A DNA stretch of 64,000 nt, taken from Gossypium raimondii (taxonomy: Eukaryota > Streptophyta > Magnoliopsida > Malvales > Malvaceae). This document shows, piece after piece, positions 6,976 to 62,264 of this stretch. The notes beneath the pieces are model-generated. The model was not told the origin of the DNA. It made no database searches and was given only the letters and a program-made list of their open reading frames with translations. The stretch's first letter is position 1; each line of letters begins with the position of its first letter. The DNA is taken from assembly GCF_025698545.1 (NCBI RefSeq), contig NC_068571.1:35001733-35065732 (forward strand), read 5' to 3'. The position numbers were made by a program, and so were the translations under genes.

Positions 6976-7097
6976 TCTCCACTAATCTCTACCATCAAAC
7001 TAGTTAGGATCAAGAAATTAATCCACCCATCAACATTGTTATTCTCCTTGGATAGGATCCAAGGCCTAGCTTGCTCTTAAATTAGGAGATTGAATCC

Positions 7098-29275: not shown

Positions 29276-30407
29276 ATGGTAAAGACACGGAATTTTGTTG
29301 AGGGAGATAGTACCTTAGCAACAAAAGTTGTTTGGGATGATGAGCTGACGTTGATATTTTGTAAGCTTTGCGTGAATGAAGTCAATGCTGGTAATAGACC
29401 GACAACTCATCTAAACTCAAAAGGATTGGAAAATGTGGTTGCTCTTTTTCAAGCAAAAACACAAAAAATTTATGGAAAACTTCAATTGAAAACTAAGTGG
29501 GATACTTTAAAAAAGGAATGGAGGTTATGGAGAGAGTTGCTTAAGGAATCTACAGGTATTGGATGGTGTCCATCTAAAAAGACGGTCGATGCTACCGAAG
29601 AATGGTGGGCTGCAAAAATACAGGTTAGTGTTAACTTTATCATTATTTTAATGCATAAAGTTTATTGAAATTAATAATTTACAATTATAAAAATCTTAGT
29701 ATAACATTTAAATTTAACATGTTATGTAGGAAAATCCTGATTTTAAAGGATTTAAGAAGAAAGGAATTGAACCACGATTGAATGAGTTAATGTGGCAAAT
29801 GTTTGGTGGCATTGTAGCCACTGGAGAAAATGCATGGGCACCTTCGTCTGGTGTTCTTCCAAGTGGGATTCCTATGGGAGATGATGCACCTAATGAGGAA
29901 TTTGGTGATTCAGATAAACATAGTAACGAGAATGAAGGTATTCCTCCTGATGAGGTACCATCAAAACCTTCTCATGAAATCCCTAATCGAAGAAAGCAAA
30001 CACTTGGGGCTGTACACGGTAAAGGAAAAAAATCAAGTTCAAGTAGAAAATCATCAAGAATTACATTAACTACTCAGATCGAGAAATTGTGTGAGAGTAT
30101 GGCTAGTCCAAGGAAGTCAGTGACTGAAATTATTTTTCCTCACTCTCAATATACTATTTCAAATGCAATGGATGCTTTGCGTGCTTTGGGAGATGAAATT
30201 CCAAAAAAAGATGAACTATACTATTTTGCCACCAAAATGTTCCAAATACCGGTGAAACGAGAAGTGTTTTTGAACTTAGATCCAGATGATAGGGTTTGGT
30301 GGCTTCGATGTGAGTATGCTGAACAAAATCCAATTGCATCATTTTCATCCTTGGTAGCAACATCCTCATTTCCCTTCCAACCGTACCATCAACCACCTCC
30401 ACCATAA
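29276..30407 (+). CDS. Harbinger ORF1, Myb/SANT-like DNA-binding protein
   Basis: This is the partner protein of PIF/Harbinger transposases, thought to bind terminal DNA and help import the transposase. Exons are 29276-29623 and 29730-30407, with a GT...AG intron of 106 bp; the joined product has 341 residues and no defect. Residues about 18-115 form the Myb_DNA-bind_3/trihelix-like domain with its spaced Trp residues (VVWDDELT, KTKWDTLKKEW, EEWWAAKIQ). ENPDFKGFKKKGIEP opens exon 2. A Ser/Lys-rich linker (SSSSRKSSR) precedes a conserved C-terminal region (ALRALGDEIPKKDELYYFA). It ends in a Pro-rich tail. Related domains occur in domesticated host genes, but the neighbouring transposase places it in the transposon. 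Confidence 0.85.
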
Positions 30408-30578
30408 GCTCCTTAGAATTATTATTGTAATATAACTATACTACTTTTTTATATGTAAAACTAATGTATGATACTTTTTATGTTTGGTATTTTTATGCTA
30501 TGCTTTTAATCAAGTTTCTGTGTTGTATAGAATGTCACGAAATATTAATTTATTTTCATTTGATTACTTTTTCAGGTT

Positions 30579-31978
30579 ATGGATGAATTTAACAATATGT
30601 ATAATAGTTTTGATATGAATTATGATACCCCTGAATTAAGTGAAAAAGCTCAACGAAGAATAGCCACAATTGTTACCCAATTTGAGCACAACAATTATCA
30701 TGAAGAGGAAGAATATGTGTTAAGCAGTGTATTGGTACACCATGAAACTTATTTCACTATACAACCGCGTATGAATTCAAATTATACAGGTCAAATATGG
30801 GTGGACGAAGTATTAAATGGGCACGATGATCGTTGCATAAATAGTTTTAGGATGCCAAAAAATATATTTCACAGCTTGTTGCATAATTTGCAAACAAATT
30901 ATGGCTTAAAGAATGGGAAAGTATCGGCAATGGAGAAGTTAGCATTATCATTGTACATTCTTGGAAATAGAGAATCAAATTCAAATGCAAAAGAACGATT
31001 TCAACGATCTGGGGAAACTGTTAGTAGAATTTTTACTGATATATTGCATATATTTGGTCGAATGAGAATAAACACGATTAAACCCACTGAAGGTCAATTC
31101 GAGGAAGTACCGAACCATATTCGACATGATACAAGATATTGGCCTCACTTTAAGGTAAAATTTACACAATCTTTATATTTTTAAAATATAAATTATTTCT
31201 AACTTTTATCTCATTACTTGTATTTATTTTAAAGGATTGTATTGGGGCCATAGATGGAACACACATAAAAGCATGCATTTCGCCTTCTTGTGAAATACCT
31301 TATACCGGACGGAAAGGTGAACCAATTCAAAATATTATGCCAGTTTGTGACTTCAACATGTGCTTTATTTTTGCATTTCCTAGTTGGGAAGGAACAGCAC
31401 ATGATAGTAGAATTTTTTTTGCAAGCACTTAGAAAACAAGAGTTAAAGTTTCCACACCCTCCACCAGGTTGAACTTTAATTTTTTAATTAATTTTTACAT
31501 AAAAAATATTAAAATTTTTAATTTATTTTTAAATTTGATATTATGTTTTACTTTTTTGTAGGAAAATATTATCTTGTGGATTTAGGATATCCACAAATGG
31601 CAGGTTTTCTAGGTCCATATAGGGGGAATGATATCATTTACCTGATTTTCGTCGAGGTAATCATCAAGTATCTGGAAAAAAAGAAATCTTTAATCATGCC
31701 CATTCTTCGTTACGCTCTGTGATTGAACGAACATTTGGAGTGTGGAAAAAAAATGGCCAATATTAAGAGATATTCCAAGTTATTCATTCAACAAGCAAGT
31801 TTTAATAGTTATTGCAACAATGGTTTTGCATAATTACATTCGAAGACATGCTTGGTCAAATGATGAGGATTTTCGAGAATTTGAGAATACACCCGCATGC
31901 CAGTCTCTTCAAGCCAGTTTGACGGAGGTAAGTCGAGTTCTTCTAACAGAGAAAGTGACCTTGAAATCACGATGTTAA
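30579..31978 (+). pseudogene. PIF/Harbinger DDE transposase (HARBI1-like), frameshifted
   Basis: Exon 1 is 30579-31154, exon 2 is 31235-31467 and exon 3 starts at 31562, all with GT...AG borders. The N-terminal helix-turn-helix region is in exon 1. Catalytic blocks are readable: Asp in GAIDGTH (about 31247), Asp in TAHDSRIF (about 31395) and Glu in VIERTFGVW (about 31725), followed by MVLHNYIRRH. Two frame defects disrupt it: an extra T in an eight-T run at 31413-31420, and a one-base shift near 31630-31634. The first sits in a homopolymer and could be a sequencing error; the second is less easily dismissed. As written the protein is inactive. Confidence 0.85.
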
Positions 31979-32399
31979 GGGAAACCATTGCAACTAGTTT
32001 AATGAATCCATATTTGTAAAAATATTTTGTATCATAACCTAATTTCTAGTAGTAATGAAACTTGTTATGTCTTATGTTACTATTTTTTTATTAAAATCAT
32101 CCGTTTAGATACTTCAAAATTTGATCCAAGTATAATGTTACTATTTGTGAAAATAATATTTATCATTGTTATAAAAATATTTAACTATAAAAATTAAAAT
32201 AATTATCATTTTATCTAATAAATAATTTAAATTAATTATATAATTCATTAAAATATTAGAAGATACGTTTTAATATTTTATTAAATGAATTTATAAATTC
32301 ACATATTTTAATAATTTTAAAAAAGTAAAATAATTTAAAAAACTTCTATTATATATCAATTCTAATCTGATGTCCTTAATAGTCATTTTTTATTCTCAC

Positions 32400-32530: not shown

Positions 32531-32560
32531 GTAAACACACCGCCCATCCAAACTAAGCCT

Positions 32561-36362: not shown

Positions 36363-39231
36363 TCATATGAAATGATAACGTGTTTCAATGTGTCTTGTTC
36401 TACTGTGATAAACAGGGTTTTTTGTCATTGCAATTGTTGACTGATTATCACAATAGATGGTAGTTGCCTCTACTTGTGTTTGCTTTAAATCATCAAGAAT
36501 TCTTCGTATCCAGATAGCTTGACACGCAGCAGCAATAACAGCCATATATTCAGCCTCCAAAGATGATAAAGTAGTTGATGGTTGCTTCTTTGAGCTTCAT
36601 GAAACAGCTCAGCTACCCATAGTAAAAACGTAACTAGTTGTACTCTTGCGATCTTCAATGCAACCACCCAAATCACTATCTGAAAAACCATACAGTCTTT
36701 GATTGTTAGAGAACTTATACCATATTCCAAATGAGCTTGTCCCCTTCAAATAGCGCAAGATTTGCTTGGCAGCTCCAAAGTGATGCTTGCTTGGACTCTA
36801 CATATATCTAGACAAGAGATCTGTTGCTTGCAAAATATCAGGTCTACTATTTGTTAGATACAACAGACTCTCAATCAGACTTCGAAACAATTAACAATCA
36901 ATTTTCTCTCCCCCATCATCTAAACAAAATTTTTGATTGGTGCACATTGGAGTACTCACGAGATTGCAGTCCTTTAAGTTGAACTTTTCAAGAAGATCAT
37001 TCACATATTTTTCTTAAGACATAAAAATACCCTTTGCACAATATTTAATTTCTAGCCCTAGAAAGAAACTCATCAACCCCAAATCAGTCATTTCAAATTT
37101 GTCTGTCATCAGCTTTTTAAACTCATTCAACAAAGCACTACTATTGCTAGTATAAATCAAATCATCAACATAAAGGCAAATAATGAGAATCTCAGAAGTA
37201 CCTTTACTTTTCATAGATAGACTTGGCTCACTGGACTTCTTTGAAAACCATTATTGCTGAAATATCCATCAATTCTTCCATACCAGGCTCGCGGCGCTTG
37301 CATTAAGCTATATAGAGCCTTTTTCAACCTATACACTTTCTCTTCTTGATTTGTAATCTCGTAACCTTTTGGTTGCTGCACATATACTTATTCTTTTAAG
37401 ATCCCATTTAAAAAGGCCGACTTGACATCAAACTGATAAACCTCCCAACTTAATTGAGCTGCAATTAACAGAATAACACGTATGGTGTCAAATCTTGATA
37501 CCGGTGAGAGTTTCTTGGAAATCTAACCCGTCATGCTGTATATACCCTCGTGCAACCATACTTTCTTTATGCTTTTGAATGGAACCATCAGCCTAGAATT
37601 TAGTTTTTAAAATCTATATTTTAACCCAACAGCTTCTTTTCCATTTGGAAGATCTACTAATTCCCACGTCTTGTTCTTTTTCAAGGCTTTCATTTCATTA
37701 TCCATTGCATCTTGCCATTCCTTGGATTTGATTGCTTCTTCAAAGATGATTGGATCTTCAATTTGGGCGAATTGGCATTGTTCAGTGCTTGCATAAATTT
37801 CTGCCAACGATCTCCATTTTCTAGGTGGTGATTCTGATGAAGAAGAGCTTGATGAAGTGGTATTTAGAATTACTGAAGGACTGCTTGGTGCTGATGAGTA
37901 AGAACTTCCATCTCCATTTTCTTGACTCGGATGAGTGTCGAGACATTCACCATCTTCAAGTAATGCTTCTGAACCTGCTTGTAATTCCTTCTAATTCCAA
38001 GAGTTTTTCTCATCAAAAACAACATCACGACTAATTAATAGCTTCTTAGATAAAGGATTATACAATCGATATCCTTTAGTTTTAGAGCTATACCCAACAA
38101 AGATACATTTAGTGCTATTATCATCTAACTTTCCTTTCTTTTGAGATGGAATATGCCCAAACGCAATGTAACCAAAAATTCTCACATGAGTTACCTCAGG
38201 TTTCCACCTATGCCAAGCTTCAAATGGTGTCTTTTGTTCTAGAGCTATATTGGATATCGGTTGAGGATGTACACTGCTGTGTGAATTGCTTTTGCCCAGA
38301 AACTTTTTGGAAGATCTTTAGCTTTAAGTAAGTATTTTCCCATCTCAAAAAGACTCTGATTCTTCCTCTTAGTGACTCCATTTTGTTGAGGGGTGTAGCT
38401 TGCTGTTAGCTGGCATTGACTGCCAGATTCTTCACAAATTTTGTTGAATTCAGTAGAGAGAAATTCTCCACCACGATCTATCTGCAAGGTCTTTATAGGC
38501 TGGCCACTTTGTTTCTCAATACTTACTTTAAACTTCTTGAAACCTCAAAGAGCCTCTGATTTTTCTTTGACAAAGTACACCCATGTCATTCTACTGTAGT
38601 CATCAACAAAGACTAAAAAATACCTATTGTTATTGAGAGAAAGTGTTCTCATCGGTCTGCAAAGATCAACATGAATAAGTTCAGCAAGTTGGGAAGCTCT
38701 CCTTGCCTTGCCCTTTGGAAATGAATCTCGATGTTGTTTCCCAAATATACAGCTCTCACACACATCACCAACATTTTTTATTGGAGGTAAACCATCAACT
38801 AAATTCTTTTAAGACATGAGTTTTAAACTACAAAAACTTAAGTGCCCATATCTATGATGCCACAACCAATTTTCATCAAATGATTCTGCCTTCAATGAAA
38901 GCTTTTCATCAATTGTGAGATTATAAGGAAAAATCTTATTTTTTGCCATTGAAACACTCACTAACAGGTGCTTTTTTGATTTATCCTTAAAAATGCAGCA
39001 ATTGAATTCCTCAAAGACAAGTGAATACCCATCCACCATAAATTGCCTAACACTTAGCAAATTAGAATCTAAGTCTGGAACATACAAAACATTATGAATG
39101 CAATTAAGACCTAGGGAATTCATCTGCACAGTACCTTTTCCCTTTGCTACACGAACAGTTCCATCACCAAGCGTTATTCGGCTAGTTACCGACTTATCTA
39201 AGTTGCTGAAGAGACTTAATTCACTTGTCAT
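36363..39231 (-). pseudogene. Copia-1 pol (integrase, RT, RNase H), degenerate
   Basis: Minus-strand blocks in order are GAG-pre-integrase with LWHHRYGHLS (39231-38809), integrase core start CESCIFGKQHRDSFP (38763) and PQQNGV (38487-38245). Next come the integrase end IFGYIAFGHIP (38185), RT start ALKKNKTWELVDLP (37807-37607), RT catalytic YVDDL (37214-37014) and RNase H end EAEYMAVIAAACQAIW (36560-36363). Each block is open for only 60-140 codons, separated by stops and shifts. The retroelement is incapable of making its own enzymes. Confidence 0.88.
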
Positions 39232-39652
39232 ATGATTCCTACAGCCACTATCTCTGTACCAAACCTCAGGAGAACACTCCTTAGCACTAAAGCATGCAAC
39301 GAATAGGCTCTCTGTCTCATCTTCTTCACTATCTTCATGAGTCAGGTTAGCCTGCTTCTCTTTAAGCTTGCAAAACCTCTCAATATACCCGAACCTTTTG
39401 CAATAGTAATATTGTTTTGGACTACTATTTTCTCCTTTATCGTCATCTCTATACCGTTGGTTCTGTCCATTGAATCGGCCACCGGCCTACCTCTTCTTCT
39501 CTCACGAGATGAATTTCCTCCACACTAGTCATTGAAGTTTGTTTCGCTGGTGCCTTTCCACCACGAGAGTATTGCGACCAACTATAAAGGGCATTCTCAA
39601 TAGACGCATTATCATACCTTTTCATCCTATCATCATGAGAGTAAAGAGAGCC

Positions 39653-40222
39653 TTACAACTCATCAATTGTTAACACACTCAAATCTTTTGATTCTTCTAT
39701 AGCTACAACTACATGACCATATTTCCTCGGTAAACTCCTAAGAATCTTCTCAACTACCCTTTGATCACTTAAATTCTCACCATATTTTCGAATTTGATTC
39801 ACAACATCAATTACTCTTGACACATAATCATCCAGAACATCATCATCTTCCATAATAAAATTATCAAACTTCCTACGCAGAGTTTGAAGTTTGACAGACA
39901 TCACCTTTGTAGTACCTTGATATGCCGTTCGTAGCATGCCCCATGCTTCTTTCGAACGCGTCACCACTTCAATGTGAGGAAAAATTGATTCATCCACAGC
40001 TTGTTGGATGAAAAACAAAGCTTTAGCATCCCTCTTTCTTATATCTTTGAGAGTCTCAGCTACTGCCTCCTCTTCACCGTATCCATTTCCCACCAAGTCC
40101 CATAGGTCTTGGGACAAAAACAAAGTCTTCATCTTAGTGCTCCAAACTCCATAGTTGCTACCTTGAAAAATTAGAACCAACGGCTGTGAGAGGTTCACTC
40201 CATTCTGATTGCTCGCCATCAT
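39653..40222 (-). pseudogene. Copia-1 gag (UBN2 domain)
   Basis: An open frame from the MMASNQNG start at 40222 to a stop at 39653 gives 189 residues. It contains YGVWSTKMKTLFLSQDLWD and the UBN2 core (SKEAWGMLRTAYQGTTKVM, then LRRKFDNF). A premature stop after TIDEL removes the zinc-knuckle part, which continues in broken form down to about 39330. The frame is open further upstream to 40312, but that part is LTR and leader. Confidence 0.82.
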
Positions 40223-40560
40223 AAGCTTGAACACAGGCCTCGAGTAGGATACCAGATGTTGATAAAAAGCTGCTGCTAAAAAAACCAGAACAAAGGACTG
40301 AAGCGGAAACAATAGGAATTCAGAGAAATTGAAAACAGTGACATTCAGCCTTTATTCCATGAAGAGTACTTTAAATACCGAAACAGCTAACAACTTAGAG
40401 ATATATTAGGACTTTAATAGTATCTTGATAAATCTCCTAAATAAAAGGAACACTACTGGCATTAAACAAAGACTATGTCTGTTTCTAAAACAGACTTTGA
40501 CTGACTCAACGACTAACTTATTCAATCAGTAACAAATAATTTCTACATTACCCTTTAACA

Positions 40561-40701
40561 CAAAGGTCTCACAAAGCATTATCTAGTAAACCCATCTCGC
40601 AACAAACCCTAATTTCAGCAAAATGTACCACAGGTAGTTCCAATCCACCTTGTCATAGGCCTTACTGATATCAATCTTCATTGCAACTTCACCCACCTAA
40701 C
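40561..40701. repeat. 141-bp direct duplication flanking copia-1, right copy
   Basis: It abuts the other LTR end at 40560 and ends at the same base of the LINE as the left copy. The LINE then continues uninterrupted from 40702. Confidence 0.95.
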
Positions 40702-41577
40702 CCCAACTCTTACTTTTAATTGATTAGCAAGGACTTTGGCCACAATCTTGTACAACACATTACACATTGCAATAGGCCGAAAATCCTGAATACGACTCAG
40801 TTGATCCTTTTTAGGGGTTAGAATAACCAATGTGTCATTAAAAGAATCAGGAAAAGTACTATTCTCAAGCCAAGTACAACACTGCAAATATATCCTCACC
40901 CACGATAGACCAAAATTGTTGAAAAAAAAGTCAGATTCATGTCGTCCAGCCTCGGGACTTTATCAGGATGCATATTAAAAATCGCTTGATGGAATTCGTC
41001 AACAGTAAACGATGCCAACAAAATATCATTATCAGCAAAGTCAAAAGCGGAACACATATCATCAAAGTCAAAGAAATCCATCAGTAGACAAAGAAAACAA
41101 TGATACAAAATAATTTGAAATAATGGTAGACATACCAGTCAAGTTCGAACAAGGCTGCCTATCCACGTTAAGTAACATATGAATATAGTTGAGCCACTTC
41201 CTTTTTTACGCTTGTGCAAGAAAATATTTGGTATTAACCTCCTCGTATCGTAACGAAAAACCTTTTGATCATTGTTCCCATTAAATTTCATCTTGCGCCA
41301 AAAGGAAATTAAGTTCAGCTCACACATTCTGAACCTCAGCAAGGTCGGCGTTCGAAGTATGGAGAGTTGCCAGTTGATCTTTAAGTTCCTTAGTTCATCC
41401 TTTGAAGTTAACATCACTAGCCCTTTACCACTCTCACAAAATGGACGCCACAAGTCACCACCTTTTCAAGGACAGGCCTCTACGCTAATCCCTCCCCATA
41501 TTTAGTTACCAAAACTTTAAAACCATCGGCAGTCAACCATTTATTTTTAAAACAAAATCTCCAGTCTCTATGCACAG
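40561..41577 (-). pseudogene. LINE segment between endonuclease and RT, with RT start
   Basis: The first 141 bp (40561-40701) are the right copy of the duplication. Positions 40899-40702 give the RT opening (PDSFNDTLVILTPKK, then DFRPIAMCNVLYKIVAKVLA). Positions 41108-40896 (FTVDEFHQAIFNMHPDKVP) and 41453-41139 are the linker region typical of plant LINE ORF2. Copia-2 sits at the right border with a CACAG duplication (41573-41577). Confidence 0.8.
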
Positions 41578-42038
41578 TGTGGGAGTTGAGAATCAAAACA
41601 AAGCAATCACAGCAAAGTCTTAAGCATTAAGAAATAGAGAATTGCTGAACAAACAAGAAAATCGAGCTAAAGAGACCCAAGAACAGATTGTTTAAGTTAA
41701 ACCAAAAACAAGAAGAAAATTTGCTGAATGATTCATCATCATATATTAGAAGGAACAAAACATTACATATAGCAAGTAATTAACTTGTAGAAAGTGCCAC
41801 CTAAACACACCTAACTCCACTAACAATGTCTTGAAACTTATAAAACATTGCTTACACACTTGGTTAAGCTGATTTATCACATCTATCAGCACCAAATTAC
41901 AACAAATTCATTACAATCTTTGTTCAAATGTAACTAAGTAAAAAAATCATCAAAACAGCAAGATGACAGCTGTATGTTCTTCAGCTGCTACCTGTATGGC
42001 TCGATCCCAAGGGTCTGCATGTAAGCCAACTTTTAACT

Positions 42039-44110
42039 CTCCTCCTTGGCTTTCATGCCGCAAACATCCAATCTAACTCTCAGATTCTTGAACCTTGTCA
42101 CACCAAGAGGCTTAGTCAATATATCAGCCAACTGGTCTTCTGAACTACAATGAACCAATATGATTTCTTAAGATTGTTCCATTTTCCTTAAAAAATGAAA
42201 CTTGATCTTAAAATGCTTTATTTTTCCATGAAACACTAGATTCTTTGCAATTGCAACAGCAGCTTGATTATCACTTCTGATCTTTGTTGCTTTTATTTGG
42301 TGTAAATTCAAGTTTGTCATGATCTTTCTTAACCAAATTGCTTGGTTAACAGCTCCTATAGCTACTATATATTCTGCTTTAGCTGTTGATTGAACAATAA
42401 TTAGATCTGATCATGGGTCGAGCCACCCAGCCCAGCCCAAAGGCCTGCCCAAAATGTGAGAGGGTTTGGGCAAAAATATAGGCCCGAAAAATGGGCTTGG
42501 ACAAAAAAATAAGGCCCGTTTAAAAAGTGGGTCGAGCCTCGGGTAAGGCAATTTTGGCCTTGGCCCGAATTCACTAAAGGACAAAAAAATTTTACTCTTT
42601 TTTTTATTTTTGAATATTATTTTCTTGTTGTTTTCTCCCTATTTTGCTACCATTTTACTATTATGTTGCTACTATTTTATTGTTATTTTTTGGATATTGT
42701 ATAATACTTATTTTATTGTTAATTTTGTTATTATTTTAAAGGCATTTGTTAATTTTGATATTATTTTAGAGGCATTTGCTTGTTAAGTTGTATTTATCTT
42801 AGTTTTATTTAAATCTACATAGTTTTTAAAATTTATTTTCAATTTGTTGGAAAATATTTATTTTGATGTTTTTAGTATTTTTGATGTATTATATATATTT
42901 AAAAATTATATGAAAATAATATAAAAAATTAATACGGGCAGGCTGGGTTAGGCCCAAGTTTTAGCATTTTTATCTAGGTCGAGCTTGGGAAAAATTTTAG
43001 CCTCATTTTTTGGGTCGAGCCCGAGACTAGTAAATGGGCTTGAATTTTTAGTTTAGCCTGGCCCGAACCCGGCCTGGCCCAACCCATGAGCACCTCTAGC
43101 AACAATAGACTATTTTTTAGCTCCAACAAAAAAATAGCTGATCCAAGGGTAAATAGATACCCTAAAGTGCTTTTCATGTCACCAATTGATCTTGCCCAAT
43201 CACTGTCTGCAAAACCAAGGAGCTTGATGCTGTCAACCTTGGTGAACATAACTCCAAAGCTCAGAGTTCCCTTAATGTACCTCATTACTCTCTTTGCAAC
43301 TTGAAAATAGTTCATATTGCAACAATGCAAAAACCTGGATAGGAAATTGACTGCAAACCTTATGTCTGGCCTTTGTGGCTGTTAGGTAGAGCATTAGGGT
43401 CCTATAGGTTGATTCACTCACTTTCTCGAAATCACCTTGGCTTGATAGCTTTTCTCCAACAGTAATTGGAATACTAGTTGCCTTGCATTTTGTATGGCAA
43501 ATTTGTTCAGAATTTTCAAGGCAAATGCCTTCTAACTTATAAAGAGCCCTTGTTGAATCTGAAATACTTCCATGCTGATAAAATAAGACATTTCACCCAA
43601 ATCTGACATTTCAAACATGCTTTCCATCTTGTCTTTAAAATCAGTCAATATAGCATTGTTTCCACATGTTACCAGCAAGTCATCCACATACAAGGAGACT
43701 ATGAGCAGCCTTTCATCACCATCCTTCTTTACATACAATGTTGGCTCACTAATGCTTCTCTCAAACCCCAAGCTTGCTAGGTAGGTTTCAATTCTGTCAC
43801 ACCAGGCCCTTGGTGTTTTCTTTAAGCCATGCAAGGCTTTTCTCAACTTTTACACTTTGCCTTCTTCACTAGCACCTTTAAAACCCTTTGGTTGTTCAAT
43901 ATGTATCTCCCCATTAAGAAAACCATTGAGGAATGCAGATTTTACATCAAGTTGATGTATTTTTCATTACCTTTGAACAGCCAATGAAACCAGTAGTCTG
44001 ATTGTATCAAGTCTTGCCATGGGAGCAAATGTTTCAAGGTAATCAATCCCATACTTCTAACTAAATCCGTTCACTACTAACCTTGCCTTCAGCTTGTTCA
44101 AAGTTCCATC
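42039..44110 (-). pseudogene. Copia-2 RT and RNase H, degenerate, split by a MITE
   Basis: RT is at 43846-43532 with ALHGLKKTPRAWCDRI, catalytic LYVDDLLVT and FEMSDLGEM. RNase H starts at 43330 (RVMRYIKGTL, LLGFADSDWA, STLGYLFTLGS). It is interrupted by the MITE at 43097 and resumes below 42403 (QSTAKAEYI). Stops and shifts occur between blocks. RT motifs further upstream lie beyond the LTR unit at 44116. Confidence 0.85.
42403..43097. mobile_element. MITE, GGTGCTCATGG family, copy B
   Basis: The left end is AGATCTGATCATGGGTCGAG; the right end read on the other strand is AGAGGTGCTCATGGGTTGGG. Flanks share AACAATA, a probable 8-9 bp target duplication. It is inserted in copia-2 RNase H. It is longer than copy A owing to a T-rich middle (42590-42900). 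Confidence 0.7.
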
Positions 44111-44115
44111 AGCAT

Positions 44116-46447
44116 TGTAATATCTCGAAAATTACTACTGTGATACCCCGAAAATTACTATAGTAAGAAAGTAGGTATCATTGATAGTAAAATAAGAAAA
44201 TAAAGTGACAAAAAGGGAAATTTTGAGTTATGGCAACATTGAGAATTTTATTATGACATATTAATTCAAGAAAGGATTAAATCGTAAAAGTGAGAAAAGT
44301 TTTGTTACCCAAGAGTAAATACTCAAAATTTTAGGGATTAAAGTGTAAATATGAAAAGTTAAAGGACCAATAGTGTAAATATTTTAAGGGTGGAATAATC
44401 TAAAACTAAGGAAAATGGATGAATTAGGACCAAATTGAAAAGGTGAAGAATTTTAAGGGACTAAATCATTATTTTACCAAATTAAGTGATGACTCAAGGA
44501 TGAATTTTTAAAGATTATAAAGGGCAAAATGATCAATTAGAAGAGAGAGAAATCTAGAAGGCAAAGATGATGTTGGTGATATTTTAGATTAATTAATTAA
44601 AAAATATTAGTTTATTAATATTTTAATTTGATTTTTAAATGATATTTTATTATTTTATTATTATTTTATTTAGTATATATATGGAAGGAAAGATGAAGAA
44701 TATTCATCTTCTTCCCATGCATCCAACGTATGAAGAGAAAAGAAAGAAATAAACTTTCTTTTCTTTACAATTTGGTCCTTTCACCAAAAATTCACTATTT
44801 TCACTTAGAAATCAAAAGAATTTTCATGTCCATCAGAGAGAAAGATAACAAGGAGAAAATGGGGAGCTTGAATATCAAGTTAAATTCAAGAAATAGAAGC
44901 TGGAGGAGAGAGAAAATCAAGTTGAAGATTGAAATCAATAGGACAAGGTAAGAACATCAAGATTTCAATATATTTTTAAGTTTGTTATTATTGAAAAAGC
45001 ATGGAAATGATGTTATAGTAGAGTTTTCTTAAATAAAGTCTTATGTTCTTGATATATTAGTGAAGGGAAATAAGAGAAAGTGATGGAAAATATTATAGAG
45101 AAAATGAATAAGGAAGTTAGTAATCAACATTTTGCACTAAAACAGTTTTGGACAGCAGCAATAGGCTGACTTCGAAAAATCACCATAAATTATGGAAATC
45201 GAATTAAAGGATAAAAATATGGAATTAAAGCTTATTAATTCTAGTTTCTCATAAAAGAAACGGTGTAAGTAATGGAATTGTAAATCATGAGATATAATAA
45301 ATTATGTGAGACAAGGTCAGGATGAATTTGGGTTCCCCTGTTCTGACTTTGGAAAATTATCAAAAATTAGAAAAAAATAATTATGGGCTTAAATTTATAT
45401 GCTTAAAATCCTGAATGAGCCTATTTTCAAGAGGAACAAACAGGAATATCATCTGAATCCTGTACGAGGAGATAATTAATTTTTAGTGAAGAAGAGTCGG
45501 AATTGTCAAACAGCAGAACAGGGATGACTTTAAAGAATAAACTGTACTTATTGGCTAAACCAAAAATTCTGAAAATTTTATATTAAGAATATATGTGAGT
45601 CTAGTTTCAAATAAAATTAATGGATATCAATTCGGAGTTATATAGCTCAAGATATAAATAATTTTGTGACAATAACTCAAGTGAACAGCTTTGAATTAAC
45701 AAATAAATAAATAGTGAAATTATAGATAATGTTACATATAAGCATGTTACATACATTAAGGATGTGGAATGGAGAGGAGGAGGAGGAAAATATATGATTA
45801 TTCAACTAGCATGAGTTTCCATTAAAATGGCTAATTTGCATGTTTTAGGTTCAGGACTAAATTGAATAAAAGTAATATTTTAAGGGTAAATTTTAAAATT
45901 TCAAAAAGTGACCAAATTGCATGAAATGAATTTTTTATTATTTAAATTAATAAATTAAATGAAATATTAATTTATATCAAGATTGGGTGGAAATTGAGGA
46001 AAATAAAAAATTACCAAAATGTCCTTGAATTTTGGTATTTCTGCAATTTAGCCTAGTAAGTCCGTGTAACTTGAATTATATTCTTAGATGATTGAAATAT
46101 ATATATTGGATTGAGAAATTTATTTGAATTGTGAACATGAGAAATTGTGAATTGAATGAAATGGAAATGGAGTTTTGAATTACATGAGTAAATATCGGGT
46201 CTCATAGGCCCTATTTGTTATGAATATAATATTTCGAGGATATGTTGTAAAGAATTATAAAAGCACGTTAATAATTTGAAAGTTTTAATTCGGATGAAAT
46301 TTTGTAACTCGGTTTAATACGTATGCAAATGTAAGTCTTCTAGTAATGCCTCGTACCCTATTCTGACGTCGAATACGGGTAAGGGGTGTTACAATGTGAC
46401 ACCGCCAGATTCGGTCATAACGTTTAGACTGGGTTTGGGGTGTTACA
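44116..46447 (-). mobile_element. LTR unit or solo LTR, TGTAACACCCC family, copy 2
   Basis: It begins TGTAATATCTCG and ends TTGGGGTGTTACA, with a perfect 5-bp duplication AGCAT (44111-44115, 46448-46452). Both termini look locally duplicated: a second TGTGATACCCCG start lies 23 bp in, and a second GGGGTGTTACA lies about 55 bp before the end. No coding domain is visible. It shares its minus-strand start with copy 1 (13585-16869). It is inserted in the RT of copia-2. Confidence 0.75.
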
Positions 46448-46452
46448 AGCAT

Positions 46453-48960
46453 TGTGCTTGGCTCAAAACACTCATTTTACTTATATGACCTTCTTATGAA
46501 CTGGTCTTGCAACTAACTCCTAAGTTTAGTTTTTATGAATCATGCTCATTTCATCAAGCATGGTTTGCCTCCAGCCTTCTTAAGCTTGAACTTCTTCAAA
46601 ACAGGTTGGTTCAACAGTAGCCACATCCATCCTCTCATATATTTCACTAATTAGTCTAAGTGCCCTGACTGGTACATGATAAATGTCCAGCTCTTGATCA
46701 TCTTGATCAGCATCAGTTTGCCCTGTCACTAGCTCTTCAACACACTTTGGCTCACTTTTATCCCAATTCTAGGTTGGCATCTCATCAAATACAACATCTC
46801 TACTCACAAAGACTTTATAAGTTGTAGGATCCAGAATTCTATAGCCCTTCTTGACACTGCTATAGCCCATTAGGATGCCAAGATGAGCCTTCTTTGCCAA
46901 TTTATCCTTCTTGGTTGTAGGAATATGTGCATAACATATGTAACCAAAGAATTTTAGGTGAGAAACTGATGGCTTGAACCCAAACCAGGCTTTAAATGGT
47001 GTTTTTTCAAACAAGGCTTTGGTTGGTAGCCTGTTTTGAAGATAAACTGTAATATTCACAGCCTCAACCCAAAAACTTCTAGGCAAATTCTTTTCAAACA
47101 TCAAGCATCTAGCTATATCCATCAGAGTTTGATTATTTCTCTCACTGACACCATTCTACTGAGGTGTGTAGGTGTTGGTGAGTTGGTGTTCGATCCCTAA
47201 TTCCTCACAAAAGTCTTGAAACGCTACTGAGGTATACTCTATCCTATTATCTGACCTTAATGTTCTAAGCTTGCAACCTGACTGAGTTTATGCTACACCC
47301 TTGAACTTCCAAAACAGTGAGGCCACTTCTGATTTAAACTTGAGAAAATAAATCCAATAGAATCTTGAGTAGTCATCAATGAAGAGGATGAAGTACCTAC
47401 TGTCATTCACGGATTGTGTATTTATAGGACTACACACATCAGTATGGACTAACTGTAGCTTTTCAGAAGCTCTCCAAGCCTTGTTTACTGGAACTAGCTT
47501 GCTTAACTAGCTGATACACCTCACAAATATCTTGTTTTTCAACTATTTTTGTCAAAATTTTCAACCAAATATTTTTTGGGCAACTGAAGCAGAGACCTAT
47601 AGTTGACATGGCCTAACCATTTATGCCACAGTTTGGACTCATCTAAGCCAGTTATGTAGGTACTAACTAAACTCTTGTTCCAATCAACTACAAAGCTTCT
47701 ATCAGTCATGGTTACTAACATGAGCTTGGATCCACTTGGATAACTAATCATGCACTCTTTGCCTTTGAATACAACAGAGTATCCCTTTTTCAAGAAACTG
47801 AGCAATACTTAGCAAATTTCTATCAATTTCAGGCACTAACAAAACATTCGAAACAAGTTTGGTACCTACCTGATGGAGTGTCAATCAGCACATCTCCCTT
47901 CCCTTCTGCTTTGATGTAGTAACCATTGCCTATTTTTACTCTTGTGTTGAAACTTCTATCAATTTCTATAAAGATAGAGCATCAGGTGCCATATGGTTGG
48001 TGCAACCACTATCAATCGACCACCCTTTTGTGGTTTTTCTTTTGGTAGCTGAACATGAGACAGCAAATACTGGTTCTTCCTGACCACAACTCTCTTCTGC
48101 CACTTGAGCTTCTGTTTTAGGCTGTTGAGGTTGGTGTTGCTTTTGTTGGCCTTTTTTTTTTTTTTGCAAACCTTCTCAACATGGCCTATATGTTTACAAG
48201 CCTTGCCCTGCACATCAGGTCTATACCAACAGTTTGCTTCTAGATGGCTAACCCTTTTATAATGTGAGCAATGTAGATCTTCTTCTTGCTCCATCTCTTT
48301 TAGGCTTGTCTGACCAAGTTTTCTTCCCTTTATAGCCAAAGGAGATCGAGGTTGGTTTGCTCTTGGCTTGAAAGGCACCTTCTTGATGCTCTTCCTGTCT
48401 ACTAGCTCTTCTTTGTTCCTAAGCATAGAGGGCATTAATCAGCTCAGTCAAAGAGATGCTTGACAGATCTCTTGAATCTTCTAGGGAAGAGATTTTGGCT
48501 TCATATCGCTTAGGTAAGGTAGAAATAACCTTCTCCATTATTCTGGCTTCACTAAATTGGTCCTCAATAAGTCTAATGTTGTTCACAACAACCATGATCA
48601 TGTTTGAATATTGCTTAACTGTCTCTGAATACTTCATCTTCAGGTTTCCAAAGTCCCTTCTTAAGTTTAAAATTTCTTGTTGTCTTATTTTTTAAGTGCC
48701 TTGAAACTCTTATTTAAGCTTGTCTCAAGCCTGTTTTAGAGTCTCACAAGTCATGATCCTTGTGAAAATCAAATCTGACACACTGTTTTGAATGCAAGAC
48801 ATTGCCTTGTACCTCTTGGCTCTATTATCAGAGTGTTGCCTGATCTGAGCTACCTTAGGGTTAGCTCTCAAGGGTGGTGGTCAACATCAGCATTGTAAAA
48901 CCTCCTACAAGTCAAATGCTTACAAGTAGGTCTTCATTTTCACTACCCAAATGTGGTAGC
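46453..48960 (-). pseudogene. Copia-2 gag and integrase, degenerate
   Basis: The gag UBN2 region is at 48637-48419 (RIMEKVISTLPKRYEAKI). A zinc knuckle lies near 48215-48170 (CKHIGHVEKVC). The protease-like DSGCTNHMA is near 47990. GAG-pre-integrase is at 47805-47539 (LWHKWLGHVNYRSL) and the integrase end at 47122-46769 ([31 protein letters not shown]). Stops separate the blocks. The gag N-terminus lies beyond the insertion at 48982-50785. Confidence 0.85.
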
Positions 48961-53971: not shown

Positions 53972-54254
53972 GAGCATGTTTGATTCGCTGTAATGGAATA
54001 GAGGAGTAATGGAATAGATGCGTAATAGAATAGAGGCGTAATAGGTAATTCTTTTGTTTGGTTGAATGGAATGGAATACAGACGTAATAGTATTCTTGTG
54101 TTTGGTTGAATGGAATAGAGGTGTAATAGCATAAAGAAAAAAACTAAAATGACTAGAATACCCTTAGCAGAATTGTTTTTAGGTAGATGATTATTGTTAT
54201 TGTTATTAAATTTTAATAAGATTATTAATATAAATAATAAATAATTTAATCATA

Positions 54255-54515
54255 TTTTAAAATAATTATGATTAAATATAATTTAATAAAATATATAATT
54301 TAATAAAATATATGAATTTACTAAAATCATAATATATAATACTATAAAATATAATTTAAAATAATTATTATTAAATATAATTTAACAAAAATATATAATT
54401 TAATAAAATTCTTAATATTAAATATTCTTATATGAATTTACTAAAATTATAATATATAATACTTAAAATATAATTTAAAATAATTATTATTAAATATAAT
54501 TTAATAAAATATATA
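54255..54515. repeat. AT-rich tandem repeat, about 2.5 units of 115-135 bp
   Basis: Blocks containing ATTAAATATAATTTAATAAA and TATGAATTTACTAAAAT recur in the same order near the left end of the TIR element. Confidence 0.75.
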
Positions 54516-55037
54516 ATTCCCCACGTTATTTGGAGATACAGGATACTAAACTAATTAATTGTTTGACTAATCAAGGTACTTGATTTTGTTTAGCCATAAA
54601 ATACATCAATATATATATTTATGTAATGAGAGTTTTCATTTACATCCGAGTAAAGTTATTTTAATTTTATATTTCAACTAACTTAACATTTTATCTCCTA
54701 TATTCTTTTTGGAATATTAATTTTATTTCAATCTTATACCATTCTTCTATTATCATTTTGATTAAATTTAAGCTTAAATCTTATAAAATAACATGTTTTA
54801 ATAATAAAATAAAACAAACTTATTTTATTAAATTCATAGGTTCAACTTAGTAAACTGTGCTTCTTTTAAAACAAAAAAGGAAAGCAGGTTATGATATAAT
54901 TTGATAAATTAAAATTAGTCAATATCCAAACTTTACAATTTAATCAAAAAGCAAATATTCTCTCCATTGAAGGTGTAGTAGATCACTTCATGCAAGACAA
55001 CAAATCAAAACGCAATTATATAAAGTACAAAATAGAT

Positions 55038-55857
55038 TGTATTTGCCCAAAACAGCAGAGTCTACAGCTTTGGATCGTTCAATGGCAGCATTTTCAAGTT
55101 TCACGGTAACTTTCTCATCTTGTTTCACCAATTCAGTGGCCCGCTTCTCATGTCTATTATCTCTAAGTTGCTGCAAGGTAAATAAAATGCCCATTTATTA
55201 TAAAATTCTATATGACACTAAAGCAAACGGTGTATCAAAAGAAGGTAATTACCCTTCGAAGTATTTTAGCAGGTGTATCATGTGAATGATCATCTGCATG
55301 GAACAAGCGAGATGAGTGAAATTTTACAAAGAGCATTATGCATACATCTAATGAGATAAATAAATTACCATCTAGAAACTTTCCTCTTTATCCCGAGATG
55401 TTTCTTGTTTCAAGTCTGTAGCCTTTTGGTTTGACTTTGAACATGTGAGGATCCAACAAATATCATCAATCGAAACTAAAATCGGAAAAATAGTTCCAAC
55501 AAAAGGATTGAGAAAATGGGAAAGTGCCAATACAAGCGATCGGTTTATTATTCAAACCTTTGAAATAGCATTATCTCGAATCAAGTCTCTACCCCAACAA
55601 CTTTTCATGACGCAGACAAATTGCCTTTTCTAAAGGAATCAAGATTTAGTGGCCCCAAATCAATCGTGCTTGTAGTTACAACATCAACAACCTAAAATTG
55701 ATCAAGTGTGGCATCATATAATTGATGTTAAAATCCAACACTTGTCGAGCAAGAAACATGATTAGCTTGTACGGAATATTCTACAAGATGCATTTACCTC
55801 CTTAGTGAAAAGGTTTTTGATAGATTGCAGAGCCAACCTTTCTCTCCAATCAACATT
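55038..55857 (-). pseudogene. GAUT1: Captured GAUT1 5' exons (galacturonosyltransferase)
   Basis: GAUT1 is the Golgi galacturonosyltransferase that builds homogalacturonan. Here five minus-strand pieces follow its N-terminal half in order. They are 55857-55798 (DWRERLALQS, 20 codons), 55691-55558 (VDVVTTSTIDLGPLNLDSF), about 55440-55371 (LKQETSRDKEES, less certain), 55293-55253 (DTPAKILRR) and 55170-55038 (QLRDNRHEKRATELV, KLENAAIERSKAVDSAVLGK). Introns with AG/GT borders separate them, so this is a genomic copy, not a retrocopy. The membrane anchor exon and the whole GT8 catalytic domain are absent. A Trp codon after NLSAS is now TGA. It is nonfunctional as GAUT1. Confidence 0.87.
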
Positions 55858-55940
55858 CTGCAACCATTTGAAAGTCATAGAGAACGAAGAAGCCATCAAG
55901 TCTGTAACCTAAGACAACCAATGTAAACGGAAAAGCTTTA

Positions 55941-56051
55941 GAATAGGCAACTTGTTTGCTAAAATCACTTTGAATAGGCAACTTGTTTGCTAAAATCACT
56001 TTGAATAGGTAACTTGTTTGCTAAAATCACTTTGAATAGGCAACATGTTTC
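55941..56051 (+). repeat. 31-bp tandem repeat, 3.5 copies
   Basis: GAATAGGCAACTTGTTTGCT plus 11 bp repeats from 55941, 55972, 56003 and 56034. The last, partial unit overlaps the end of the RNase H-like exon, so the array probably grew from that exon. Confidence 0.92.
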
Positions 56052-56125
56052 AACCCTAAAATTATGGCGCGATGTTCAGTAGCATTATTGGTTGTTATGC
56101 CCAAACCCTCGCGCAATTTGCAGAT
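56030..56125 (-). pseudogene. Captured exon of a plant RNase H-like gene
   Basis: After an AG acceptor (minus strand, 56127-56126) the sequence reads ICKLREGLGITTNNATEHRA and then IILGLKH. This matches the KLREGxGxATNNxAEYRALxLGL block of plant nuclear RNase H-like proteins (polynucleotidyl transferase, RNase H-like superfamily). The Glu-Tyr of EYRA is Glu-His here. The downstream side dissolves into 31-bp repeats with stops. One exon only; the identity is good at family level. Confidence 0.72.
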
Positions 56126-56379
56126 CTGTTCAAATAGCATATTATGGAAAGATTTATATGTGGAAAATGTCTAATTTCTAAATGGTTAATTGCATACCAC
56201 ATTTCCAGCATCAGTTTTCAATACAAAGCATTCATCCTTGTTCAAAATTTAATGCAACTCCATAATCATAAACTAAAAACAACTAAAGCATTCAATGTAA
56301 TGACACCCCTCGAGAGTAATGTTCTCGTAAAAGTTTTCCTAAAAAGAGAAGGCTTCATCCAAAACAACCTTGTAATACC

Positions 56380-57262
56380 TCAAGCAGAAGCTGCTGCAAC
56401 CTTCTTCCTTAGTGCTGCTTCAGTAACTAGATCATGATCCAACACCGGAATTGAAATTAGAAACAAACTCCAAAGATATGCTTTGAACAAAACAGAATGA
56501 AAAGAAGCTTAATTATAAACCCGTCAGGCAAAAGAATTAGCAACTCATTACCTTCTCTGAAACCCATCTTGAACCTGCAAGGGACATGGCGCAGATACCT
56601 CATCCTACCGGTTCCTATGGTCTTTCTTCTGATTGCCTTCACACTCCAGTTATCTAAATCCCACAATAAAGCAATTCCCCTTAGATTTAAGGACTAACAC
56701 CAAATTACAATCCAATCGTATCATATAAACACATCAAAACGCATGTTCATTCAAAGTACTTGAAGTATTACTACTGGTATAAGCACATTTCATATCACAT
56801 TACAACTAACAAATCTATGGTTCAGGAAGAAAACACGTTGATTCGAACTACAAGTCCATAGTTTTATATAGAAACATCTTAAAATTTGAATCACACCATT
56901 TTTCCCACCATATTCAGGAAATTGAATTCTTATCTGAATAAACGCATTCAGAGTGAAACCCAAATAGATATTCATGTCAAAAATATTAGTTTTGATATAT
57001 AAGCACATAAAGAAAGAAACCCCACTAGCCAATCCGAGAAATCTAGTTGCAAATTAGACTTAGGAACAAAGTTAACAACAAAAACGAAAAACACGATAAA
57101 CGATCTTGATAACAAAGAAAAAGAGGACGAGGCACTTACATGTCCTCTTACGAGCAAAGAGGAAAGCAGCAGAGAGCAACGGCTCTTCCGGAGATGGAAG
57201 CTACTGGCCACACCTAACGCAGAGTGTGGGTCTTGTTCCTTCTTTACCAAAACTCCTGTTCC
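56380..57262 (-). pseudogene. RPL37: Captured RPL37 gene (ribosomal protein eL37) with introns
   Basis: eL37 is a zinc-ribbon protein of the 60S subunit. Three minus-strand exons are recognisable. 57262-57140 covers [20 protein letters not shown]-like sequence to KRT but with several indels. 56653-56552 is clean ([31 protein letters not shown]). 56426-56380 ends in TEAALRKKVAAASA and a TGA stop. Splice borders are kept: ACAT|GTAAGT, TTTAG|ATAAC, GAAG|GTAATG and CTAG|TTACTG. The intact introns show a DNA-level copy. The frameshifted first exon destroys the zinc-ribbon frame, so no functional eL37 can be made. Confidence 0.9.
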
Positions 57263-57680
57263 TTTCCCCGCACATTACCACTTTTTTAATTTCATTTTCA
57301 AATATACAAGTAGATCAAGGGGTGGAAAAAGAGAAATAAACAGAGATAATCCATGAAGAAATAAAATGAAGAAAGTAAAAGAAATGAACGATTAGAACCG
57401 ATGGCAAAATCAATGGAAGGGAAAAGAAATTACCTAGAAGGGAAACGTGGGAGACTCGGAAGCTTGATGAGGGCAAAAAATGGAAAAGAAAAGATGAAAA
57501 GCAAGCGGAATCCCTAATCCGCGCTGAGGGGGCGTAATAGCTATTATGCGCAATGGGGGTAATAGGCCAGTAACTGATTCGGGTTGTAATGTGATTACAG
57601 CGAACCAAACACCCGTTTGGTTGTGGGCCCGCTGCATAGGGGGAATACATGCCTATTCCCCCCAACCAAACGTCCCCTAA

Positions 57681-59600: not shown

Positions 59601-59696
59601 ATAGCTTATCCCTGAACCTCCCTTCAAGGTCTATCTTCTGCTTGGACTCCAATTCTCTTCCTTTTCCCTTGTCTCCAACTTAAAATCATAAATGAG

Positions 59697-62264
59697 ATGC
59701 TGATAAGCCTCCAAACCCTCCATTTTACTCCCAAGAATGAAACCAACAAGGCTTGGAATTCAATAATCAAACACCAAACCAAGCTCAAAAATGACCATGC
59801 AATTCTCTCTACATTTACCCATATGCAATCTCTGGGTTTAACACCCGATAAGGCCTCTTTGCCTTTGGTTTTAAAGGCCTGCCGGAAGCTCAATGCCATT
59901 GAAACTGGCAAGAGAATACACTCGAGTATTCGAGACACTAACTTGATCGAGGATGTTCGAGTTGGGACTGCCCTTATTGACTTTTACAGTAAGTGTGGTT
60001 TCCTTGAAGACGCGCGTAAGGTGTTCGATGAAATGAGTGAGAGGGATTTGGTCTCATGGAACGCAATGATATCAGGGTATGCGGGGTGTGAGGAATTTGA
60101 GGAGGTGGTTTTTTTGGTGATGACGATGCAAAGAGAGGGTTTTAGGCCAAATTCTCGTACGTTGGTAGCGATGATTTTAGTGTGTGACAAGGTTGCGGAA
60201 GTGAGGTTAGGAAAGGCGATTCATGGTTATTGTTTGAGGAATGGGTTGTTTGATTTGGATGCTCATGTTGGTACTGCTTTGATTAGCTTTTACCTGAGTT
60301 TTTTTGATGTGAGGGCTTCTCATCTTGTGTTTGATTTGATGGCCATTCGGAATACAGTTTGCTGGAATGCTATGATTATGGGGTATTTTGATGTTGGAGA
60401 ATCCTCGAAAGCTTTGAGACTTTTTGAGCAAATGCTCATGGATGGAGTCGAATTTGATTCTGTTACAGTGTTGGCTCTTATTCAGGCCTCTGCAGAATTT
60501 GGATCTCTTGAATTAGGTGATCAAATTCATCAAATGGCTATTAAGTGCAGTTATAGCAATGACCTGTTCATCGTAAATGCATTGATTAACATGTATGCAG
60601 AGATTGGATGTTTGAAGTCAGCATGTAAACTATTTGATGGTATTCCCACACGTGATGTTGCTCTTTGGAATTCTATGATATCTGCATATATTGACTACAG
60701 CTATCATGGGGAAGCCATTAGCTTGTTTATTAAAATGCGAACTGAAGGCAACAAAGAGGATGAGAGAACTACTGTTCTTATGCTTTCTTTATGTGCTGAG
60801 TCAGCTGATGCTTTAAGAAAAGGTAGAAGCTTACATGCACATGCATGCAAGACTGGGATGGGGATGGATATTAATATTGGGAATGCAATTTTAAATATGT
60901 ATGCTGAACAAAATTGTATGGATTCTGTCAGAAAGGTTTTTGGTCAGATGAGTAATGTAGATGTAATCTCGTATAACACATTGATCCTAGTTCTGGCTCG
61001 GAACAATTTGGGTATCGAGGCATGGGAAACCTTTGGTATAATGCGAGAATCTGATGTTAAACCTAACTCTTATACAATTATTTCAATCCTTGCTGCATGC
61101 AAAGATGAAACTTGTCTGAATATTGGGAGGTCACTTCATGGTTTTGTGATAAAGCAAGGGATAGAGGTGAATGCACCCCTGAAAACCGCATTAACAGATA
61201 TGTATATTAACTGCGGTGATGAAACTACAGCTATGAAACTCTTCGAGAGTTCACACGGTAGAGATTTGATCTCATGGAATGCTTTGATTTCCACCTATGT
61301 TAAAAATAACCAAGCTCATGAAGCTTTTTTAGTATTTAGCCGCATGGTTTCTGAAGTGGAGCCCAACTCAGTTACAATAATAAATATCCTCTCGTCATGC
61401 ACCCATCTTGCTCATTTGCCTCAGGGTCGTTGTTTGCATTCTTACATGATACAGAGGGAATCCTCTTTAGGTCGCAATTTGTCTCTTCAAAATGCTTTTA
61501 TAACAATGTATGCAAGGTGTGGAAGCATGAGAAATGCTGAAAAAATCTTTGAAACCTTAACAAGGAGAAATATTATCTCGTGGAATGCTATCATAACGGG
61601 TTACGGAATGCACGGTCGTGGTTATGATGCTATTCTTGCCTACTCGCAAATGCTAGAGGATGGTTTCCAACCAAATGAAGTAACTTTCATATCTATTTTA
61701 TCAGCTTGCAGCCATTCTGGTATGATAGAGGAAGGACTGCAGCTTTTTGATTCAATGGTTCATGATTTTAACATCACCCCTCAGCTTGCTCACTATGGAT
61801 GTGTAGTTGATTTGCTTGGTCGTGCAGGCAGGTTAGACAAGGCTAGAGAGTTCATTGAATCAATGCCCATCAAACCAGATGCTTCAATCTGGAGATCTCT
61901 GCTTAGTGCTTATAGAGATCATTGTTACACTAAAGATGCCAAGGCCATTTTTGAAAAAGTTGTTGAATTGGATCCAATGAACCCGGGAAATCATGTCTTG
62001 CTTTGTAATGTATATGCTGCTGCAGGTCTTTGGCCAGAGGTCAGCGAAATGAGAAGACATCTCAGAGCTAAGGGCTTAAGAAAGCCTCCTGGAATCAGTT
62101 GGATTGTTGTTAGAAGCCAGATTCACTCTTTTGCTGCTGGAGATAGATCACACCCAATGGCAGACAAAATCTATGCAAATTTGAATTCCTTGTTGCAGTC
62201 AATTAAGGAAATAGGATATGTTCCTGATCTTCATTGGATATTGCACGATGATGAGTACATCTAA
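59697..62264 (+). CDS. PLS-class PPR protein, E+ subgroup, lacking DYW
   Basis: This is an intronless 855-residue RNA-binding protein, expected in mitochondria or chloroplasts, where members of this class choose cytidines for C-to-U editing. P, L and S repeats fill about residues 18-725, visible as recurring GxxIH, NALIxMYxxCG and WNAMIxGY signatures. From about 725 come the E motif (NPGNHVLLCNVYAAAGLW) and then E+ (GISWIVVRSQIHSFAAGD, DRSHP). The protein ends at YVPDLHWILHDDEYI, just where a DYW deaminase domain would begin, so a deaminase would have to be supplied in trans. The ATG at 59697 is the first in frame; an earlier ATG at 59692 stops after three codons. No defects are seen. The precise orthologue is not identified. 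Confidence 0.93.
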   Translation: MLISLQTLHFTPKNETNKAWNSIIKHQTKLKNDHAILSTFTHMQSLGLTPDKASLPLVLKACRKLNAIETGKRIHSSIRDTNLIEDVRVGTALIDFYSKCGFLEDARKVFDEMSERDLVSWNAMISGYAGCEEFEEVVFLVMTMQREGFRPNSRTLVAMILVCDKVAEVRLGKAIHGYCLRNGLFDLDAHVGTALISFYLSFFDVRASHLVFDLMAIRNTVCWNAMIMGYFDVGESSKALRLFEQMLMDGVEFDSVTVLALIQASAEFGSLELGDQIHQMAIKCSYSNDLFIVNALINMYAEIGCLKSACKLFDGIPTRDVALWNSMISAYIDYSYHGEAISLFIKMRTEGNKEDERTTVLMLSLCAESADALRKGRSLHAHACKTGMGMDINIGNAILNMYAEQNCMDSVRKVFGQMSNVDVISYNTLILVLARNNLGIEAWETFGIMRESDVKPNSYTIISILAACKDETCLNIGRSLHGFVIKQGIEVNAPLKTALTDMYINCGDETTAMKLFESSHGRDLISWNALISTYVKNNQAHEAFLVFSRMVSEVEPNSVTIINILSSCTHLAHLPQGRCLHSYMIQRESSLGRNLSLQNAFITMYARCGSMRNAEKIFETLTRRNIISWNAIITGYGMHGRGYDAILAYSQMLEDGFQPNEVTFISILSACSHSGMIEEGLQLFDSMVHDFNITPQLAHYGCVVDLLGRAGRLDKAREFIESMPIKPDASIWRSLLSAYRDHCYTKDAKAIFEKVVELDPMNPGNHVLLCNVYAAAGLWPEVSEMRRHLRAKGLRKPPGISWIVVRSQIHSFAAGDRSHPMADKIYANLNSLLQSIKEIGYVPDLHWILHDDEYI

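Follow-up and report, generated by a model that had tools for sequence, protein, structure and literature searches.

A probable Pack-PIF element with pieces of three host genes and a recurrent left-arm junction in Gossypium raimondii

Pack-PIF elements, transposons of the PIF/Harbinger family that carry host gene fragments, are known in maize and rice, where they are described as multi-copy clusters (Gisby and Catoni, 2022; PMC8903248), and one maize cluster combines a 163-bp and a 58-bp piece from two genes, according to the same account (PMC8903248). Our literature search for the term Pack-PIF yielded nothing beyond that paper. In grapevine, PIF elements (Pifvine-3) with exon and intron transduplications have been reported (PMC2528002), and for animal Pack-TIRs (elements defined by terminal inverted repeats, TIRs) the FoSTeST model puts forward capture by template switching, after which the elements transpose and multiply, with plants named as worth exploring (PMC8277862). 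A 2026 review covers the fusion of neighbouring elements and allows another mechanism (PMC13317346). An earlier note on the DNA studied here had regarded the capture of three genes by an element with PIF/Harbinger ends as much less documented; for gene capture by PIF elements as such, published cases exist (PMC8903248, PMC2528002). Here we analyse a window of 64,000 nucleotides from Gossypium raimondii (C7:35001733-35065732 of a 750.8-Mb assembly with 281 contigs; all plain positions refer to this window) and argue that it contains, with high probability, a non-autonomous Pack-PIF element in which pieces of three captured genes, RPL37, an RNase H-like gene and a GAUT gene, are joined.

Pack-MULEs possess Mutator ends and 9-bp target-site duplications, whereas the duplication of the window element comprises 3 bp. 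With the rice Pack-MULEs mentioned in the 2026 review (PMC13317346) it has in common that host gene pieces reside in a TIR element. It resembles the Pack-PIF elements of maize and rice, as far as these are characterized in the passages cited (PMC8903248), in being a non-autonomous PIF/Harbinger element with host gene pieces from a family with mostly TTA or TAA duplications; it differs from the cases described there in that the cargo of about 2.2 kb stems from three genes, includes introns, and can be traced to donors, joints and an empty site in one genome. Pifvine-3 is described with ORF1 and transposase regions (PMC2528002), whereas no transposase-like open reading frame (ORF) was seen by eye over the ORF lists for the window element, part of whose ORFs were run against Pfam. 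Microhomology at capture breakpoints is a trait shared with the animal Pack-TIRs presented in PMC8277862, from which the window element differs as a plant element in which several donors are joined.

The edges of the element are base-exact, with TAA followed by GAGCATGTTTGATT on the left and AACCAAACGTCCCC followed by TAA on the right, and coincide to the base with the 3.7-kb unit with TIRs and TAA on both sides that the earlier note had delimited. The left end reads GAGCATGTTTGATTCGCTG and the right end, read inwards, GGGGACGTTTGGTTGGGGGG; the terminal TIRs, GAGCATGTTTGATT and GGGGACGTTTGGTT, are short and imperfect and conform to the GGGC..GTTTGGTT type, which we take to be a PIF/Harbinger motif type. 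An inner right repeat at 57594-57611 pairs with the left end better than the outer end does (94% over 18 nt), and outside it the last ~60 bp of the element form a foldback hairpin (Table 1; 93 nt were folded and compared with 200 shuffles). The left flank is a repeat (34 of 34 candidate genome copies scored; for the right flank, 40 of 236). Three of the four paralogous left-flank repeats that were fetched, at C8:46.65, C7:35.43 and C11:35.12 Mb, continue through the insertion point with no element there (74-82% identity), and in the fourth, at C13:28.6 Mb, the match stops just past that point. Because of the TAA pair and the uninterrupted paralogous sites, insertion and 3-bp duplication are real. 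The empty site, which the earlier note had proposed to look for in related genomes, was thus found in paralogous flanks of the same genome instead.

As the earlier note had claimed, pieces of RPL37, RNase H-like and GAUT genes lie on the same strand (minus) and contain introns. Their parental loci were found on three chromosome-size contigs, C5, C3 and C11, respectively (Table 1). Since the introns are kept, the pieces were copied from DNA; retroposition is ruled out by the same observation, and capture of all cargo as a single block by donors on three contigs. For RPL37 all 14 of 14 candidates were scored and other RPL37-like loci reached 71-84%; the exon-3 piece of the window matches plant eL37 chains (E down to 3.7e-15) and gave no Pfam match, while exon 2 of the donor matches Ribosomal_L37e in Pfam (2.5e-20). 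Our exon numbering presumes a short exon 1. The RNase H-like donor is the best gene match among 10 of 10 candidates scored, with a paralogue at C5:44.92 Mb at 90%; the 47-aa piece of the window had no Pfam match of its own, and RVT_3 is matched by the 95%-identical piece of the related element L020 (4.3e-6) and by the donor (3.6e-8). For GAUT, with 6 of 6 candidates scored and two paralogues at 73%, the donor locus matches Glyco_transf_8 (Pfam, 1.9e-52); the window piece itself matched in Pfam DUF7633 alone, below its cut-off (0.009), and comparison to the PDB gave only three weak matches. The gene is presumably GAUT1, and the earlier note had spoken of its first exons. The GAUT assignment stands, but the first coding exon of the donor (L014 3365-3544) falls outside the captured stretch (L014 4001-4963). 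Pfam gave no family for six of seven further ORFs and donor exons and none for four pieces in a set of ten.

PIF/Harbinger elements are defined by a Myb/SANT ORF1 together with a DDE_Tnp_4 transposase. Both are encoded by a 6.8-kb relative with the same ends and TAA on both flanks (L028/L029, C6:16.32 Mb), whose left end is 95% identical to the window element over ~515 bp from element base 18 onward: minus-strand ORF pieces of L029 match DDE_Tnp_4 (PF13359, E 1.6e-11) and Myb_DNA-bind_3 (PF12776, E 1.8e-11) in Pfam, and two further ORFs were judged transposase-like by eye. The TAA/TAA flanks of the window element represent the 3-bp TWA duplication of this family, and the cargo has been mobilized as a unit, as documented by the empty site and by L009 on C11, a near-full copy with its own TAA/TAA. 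The element is also of Pack type, non-autonomous and with host gene DNA between its TIRs from donors at other loci. Outcomes that the earlier note had listed as fatal to a Pack model did not materialize: the genes stop at the ends, TIR-sharing relatives occur elsewhere in the genome, and the donors do not lie together at another place. Such relatives carry other cargo behind the same left arm, namely zf-LSD1 (L015/L030), Nramp (L032), HIT and PAP_assoc (L033), RVT_3 (L020) and unnamed ORFs, and identical 3-bp flanks enclose such cargo in L020, L030, L033 and L041. Among 14 family elements with both ends found, L035 and L032 included, 13 have identical 3-bp flanks (six TAA, five TTA, two TTG). 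This count leaves aside L012 with its truncated right end, seven loci with no clean second end (L021, L036, L037, L039, L040, L031 and the C10 copy) and L016, L017, L019, L023, L025, L026 and L027, in which no right end was found within ~2 kb past the left arm. A left end was recognized in 17 of 18 scanned loci (for L011, that of a second element) and directly follows TAA or TTA in 16 of the 17. In the first genome search for relatives 40 of 2,067 candidates were scored, so the copies counted here set a minimum for the family.

How the interior came together can be read in part from the joints. The left arm and the GAUT piece have 5 bp in common (ATAGA), and an overlap of at least 5 bp arises in 1.1% of random pairings (0.011). 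The GAUT and RNase H-like pieces likewise have 5 bp in common (TGTTT; chance 0.8%, 0.008), and at this junction a 31-bp GAUT unit stands in tandem before the switch. The pattern fits template switching, although three joints are few. We would accordingly give about even weight to stepwise assembly of the interior, in which microhomology would have guided template switches, during gap repair or replication, that copied in genomic DNA including its introns. The finished element would then have spread by transposition, its ends presumably being cut and pasted in trans by an L029-like transposase.

Several observations weigh against this account of the element and its origin. The joint between the RNase H-like and RPL37 pieces overlaps by 1 bp, expected by chance in 47% of cases (0.47), the joint between RPL37 and the right arm has no score because the native right arm differs at that point in L029, and at the GAUT joint L020 had to stand in for a native left arm whose sequence is uncertain. 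L029 itself resembles the window element at 95% on the left but at only 78% on the right, and its transposase is putative, Pfam having been run on one of the three transposase-like ORF pieces. L032, with TTA/TAA, is the sole mismatch among the 14 flank pairs, and the RPL37-carrying copies L010 and L011 have TTG duplications, which are not canonical TWA. Finally, the window element and L009 have not diverged evenly, with 2.4% in GAUT as against 5.0% in RPL37 (Fisher p 0.002), which is not predicted by simple common origin and could reflect faster mutation of GC-rich exons or exchange between copies.

Exchange is also at the heart of an alternative to which we assign an appreciable probability, though one below even, namely that the mosaic owes its growth chiefly to recombination among Pack elements that were loaded beforehand, rather than to three fresh captures in this lineage. 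Seven loci or fragments of elements, counting the window, contain the RPL37 piece. L011 and L012 share RPL37 and the right arm with the window element, have a longer 3' flank of RPL37 (1,429 versus 1,129 aligned columns in the window) and another interior, and their left end turns into L028-type sequence after ~390 bp. L010 is devoid of the stretch 54287-56158. In the C10 copy the GAUT and RNase H/RPL37 pieces are differently arranged, and 0.65 kb of other DNA separates them; a 112-bp stretch resembling L033 is located 1.1 kb past the GAUT piece, and whether it belongs to the copy is uncertain. L020 combines the same left arm with a longer RNase H-like piece. Modular exchange is thus favoured by L020, by L011/L012, by the rearranged C10 copy and by the varying divergence along the element, whereas the RNase H-like piece of the window is slightly nearer to the donor gene (97%) than that of L020 (95%), and in an alignment by eye no derived change was common to the window and L020 alone. 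In favour of our main account, the RPL37 copies carry mostly private changes and are related in a nearly star-like fashion, with L011 and L012 grouping together. In the window and in L009, RPL37 is cut at the identical point and joined to RNase H. In the stepwise account, RPL37 is found amid a different interior in L011/L012, and in the window lineage it is accompanied by the RNase H-like and GAUT pieces. Kimura two-parameter (K2P) distances to the donor of 0.039-0.056 for RPL37 (five copies) against 0.022-0.029 for GAUT (two copies) suggest, as far as sequence divergence can tell, that GAUT arrived later than RPL37.

The model put forward for Pack-CACTA elements and Pack-PIF clusters, in which two nearby elements around a host gene are mobilized as one via their distant ends (PMC8903248), is unlikely to apply here. 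It would account for the inner TIR copy within the outer right end, as a fused pair would show, and the tandem layout it needs exists in the family, since in L011 (oriented, 4479-4552) a second element starts 74 bp past the end of the first. Stepwise template switching is better reconciled with three donors on three contigs, each small internal gene piece still being present at its locus, and with microhomology and a slippage repeat at the joints. Moreover, a similar outer right end occurs in the coding relative L029 and therefore predates the capture, and no family end was recognized in the fetched donor stretches. Next to the GAUT (9.0 kb fetched) and RPL37 (7.1 kb) donors the left-arm interior had no more than brief AT-rich matches (76 and 47 columns), and the surroundings of the RNase H-like donor (3.2 kb) gave no such match at E 1e-6 or better.

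It is highly improbable that a chimeric right-end transcript has come under selection for a novel function, even though the cargo pieces as well as the transposase and ORF1 pieces of L029 are all on the minus strand. In all five copies compared, the RPL37 exons have diverged from the donor no less than non-exon DNA (0.079 versus 0.043 in the window), and the GAUT piece is without exon 1. Judging from its sequence, with a shifted reading frame and exons that lack conservation, the RPL37 cargo is unlikely to have a coding role; the five indels in RPL37 exon 2 likewise make a chimeric protein unlikely. The cargo looks pseudogenic, and any right-end transcript would be chimeric and probably non-coding. 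All seven host genes with a Pfam or PDB match of cargo or donor (RPL37, RNase H, GAUT, LSD1, HIT, PAP_assoc and Nramp) are on the minus strand; no claim of a strand bias is made, as L031 has a long unnamed ORF on the plus strand. A chance row of immobile genes or pseudogenes with TIR-like flanks, for which the short, imperfect TIRs and the retained introns could be cited, is refuted for practical purposes by the empty site, the L009 copy with its TAA pair and the donors elsewhere.

The recurrent joint at the left arm is the most novel observation of our analysis. At 17 distinct loci the left arm enters one of four continuations within ~10 bases of AAAGTACAA (55022-55035 and homologues): GAUT (two loci), an L030-type sequence (12 loci; in L030 it holds zf-LSD1 further in), an unnamed sequence in L020/L041 (two loci) and an Nramp-bearing one (one locus). 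Repeat fetches of one locus were counted once, and the set comprises arms that follow the search pattern, so that L034, for example, lies outside it. A preferred loading site of the family at this junction is conceivable, though less likely than not. Such a site would be a recurrent break or fork-stall point at which template-switch repair would load successive gene pieces, and loaded elements might also swap halves. The 12 loci with the L030-type continuation are probably one event by descent, therefore at most four joins are represented, which weighs against a loading site, as do L010, L011, L012, L031 and L033, which depart from the left arm elsewhere and earlier.

Table 1. Features of the element and its target site (window positions).
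Feature	Position	Strand	Remarks
Pack-type PIF/Harbinger element	53972-57677	.	3,706 bp; ends, TAA pair, empty site
Left target-site duplication TAA	53969-53971	.	from the sequence
Left arm	53972-55031	+	first ~532 bp 95% to transposase-bearing L029; whole ~1,058 bp common to many relatives; stops at recurrent junction AAAGTACAA
GAUT (GT8 family) fragment, intron 1 into later exon	55032-55976	-	95% to C11:56365292-56366254
31-bp GAUT unit in tandem (slippage repeat)	55938-56050	.	GAUT/RNase H junction
RNase H-like (RVT_3) exon fragment with flanking intron sequence	56046-56225	-	97% to C3:53438413-53438592
RPL37 (eL37) fragment	56226-57340	-	94% to C5:10199798-10200925; introns kept, exon 2 frameshifted
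RPL37 exon 4, C-terminal codons	56383-56421	-	position by eye
RPL37 exon 3	56550-56651	-	position by eye
RPL37 exon 2	57141-57267	-	5 indels versus donor; position by eye
Right arm	57341-57677	+	57361-57672 78% to right end of L029 (E 1.6e-64)
Terminal foldback hairpin GTTTGGTT...AACCAAAC	57614-57672	+	outside inner left-TIR copy 57594-57611; z = -3.9
Right target-site duplication TAA	57678-57680	.	from the sequence; empty site in paralogous flanks

The window contains a second, different PIF/Harbinger element at 29276-32030 on the plus strand, with a Myb_DNA-bind_3 ORF1 (E 1.1e-21) and, by eye, a transposase-like ORF; its right end, CCAAACTAAGCC followed by TAA near 32560 as located by eye, has a TIR unlike that of the Pack element. 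As a partner of the latter it was rejected, its right end GGCTTAGTTTGG differing by eye, and scanning the window for the end motif of the Pack family gave nothing at this element (29.3-32 kb). Other features recognized by eye are exons of an R2R3-MYB-like gene (7086-9741, plus strand), broken Ty1/copia-like gag-pol frames (~37600-48400, minus strand) and an open PPR-like frame of 882 codons (59616-62264, plus strand) ~2 kb past the right end of the Pack element.

The window element is a clear and unusually well resolved case of a known type of gene-shuffling element. Fusion of neighbours and template switching compete as explanations of how unlinked gene pieces enter TIR transposons, and the order of events becomes approachable here because one genome contains all three donors, three joints that can be read, relatives with other cargo, another relative with a transposase, and an empty site. 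For annotators it follows that gene models for RPL37, an RNase H-like protein or GAUT would, at loci of this kind, be transposon cargo and not genes. Should the left-arm junction prove to be a loading site, the mechanism of Pack capture in plants would be testable at one site.

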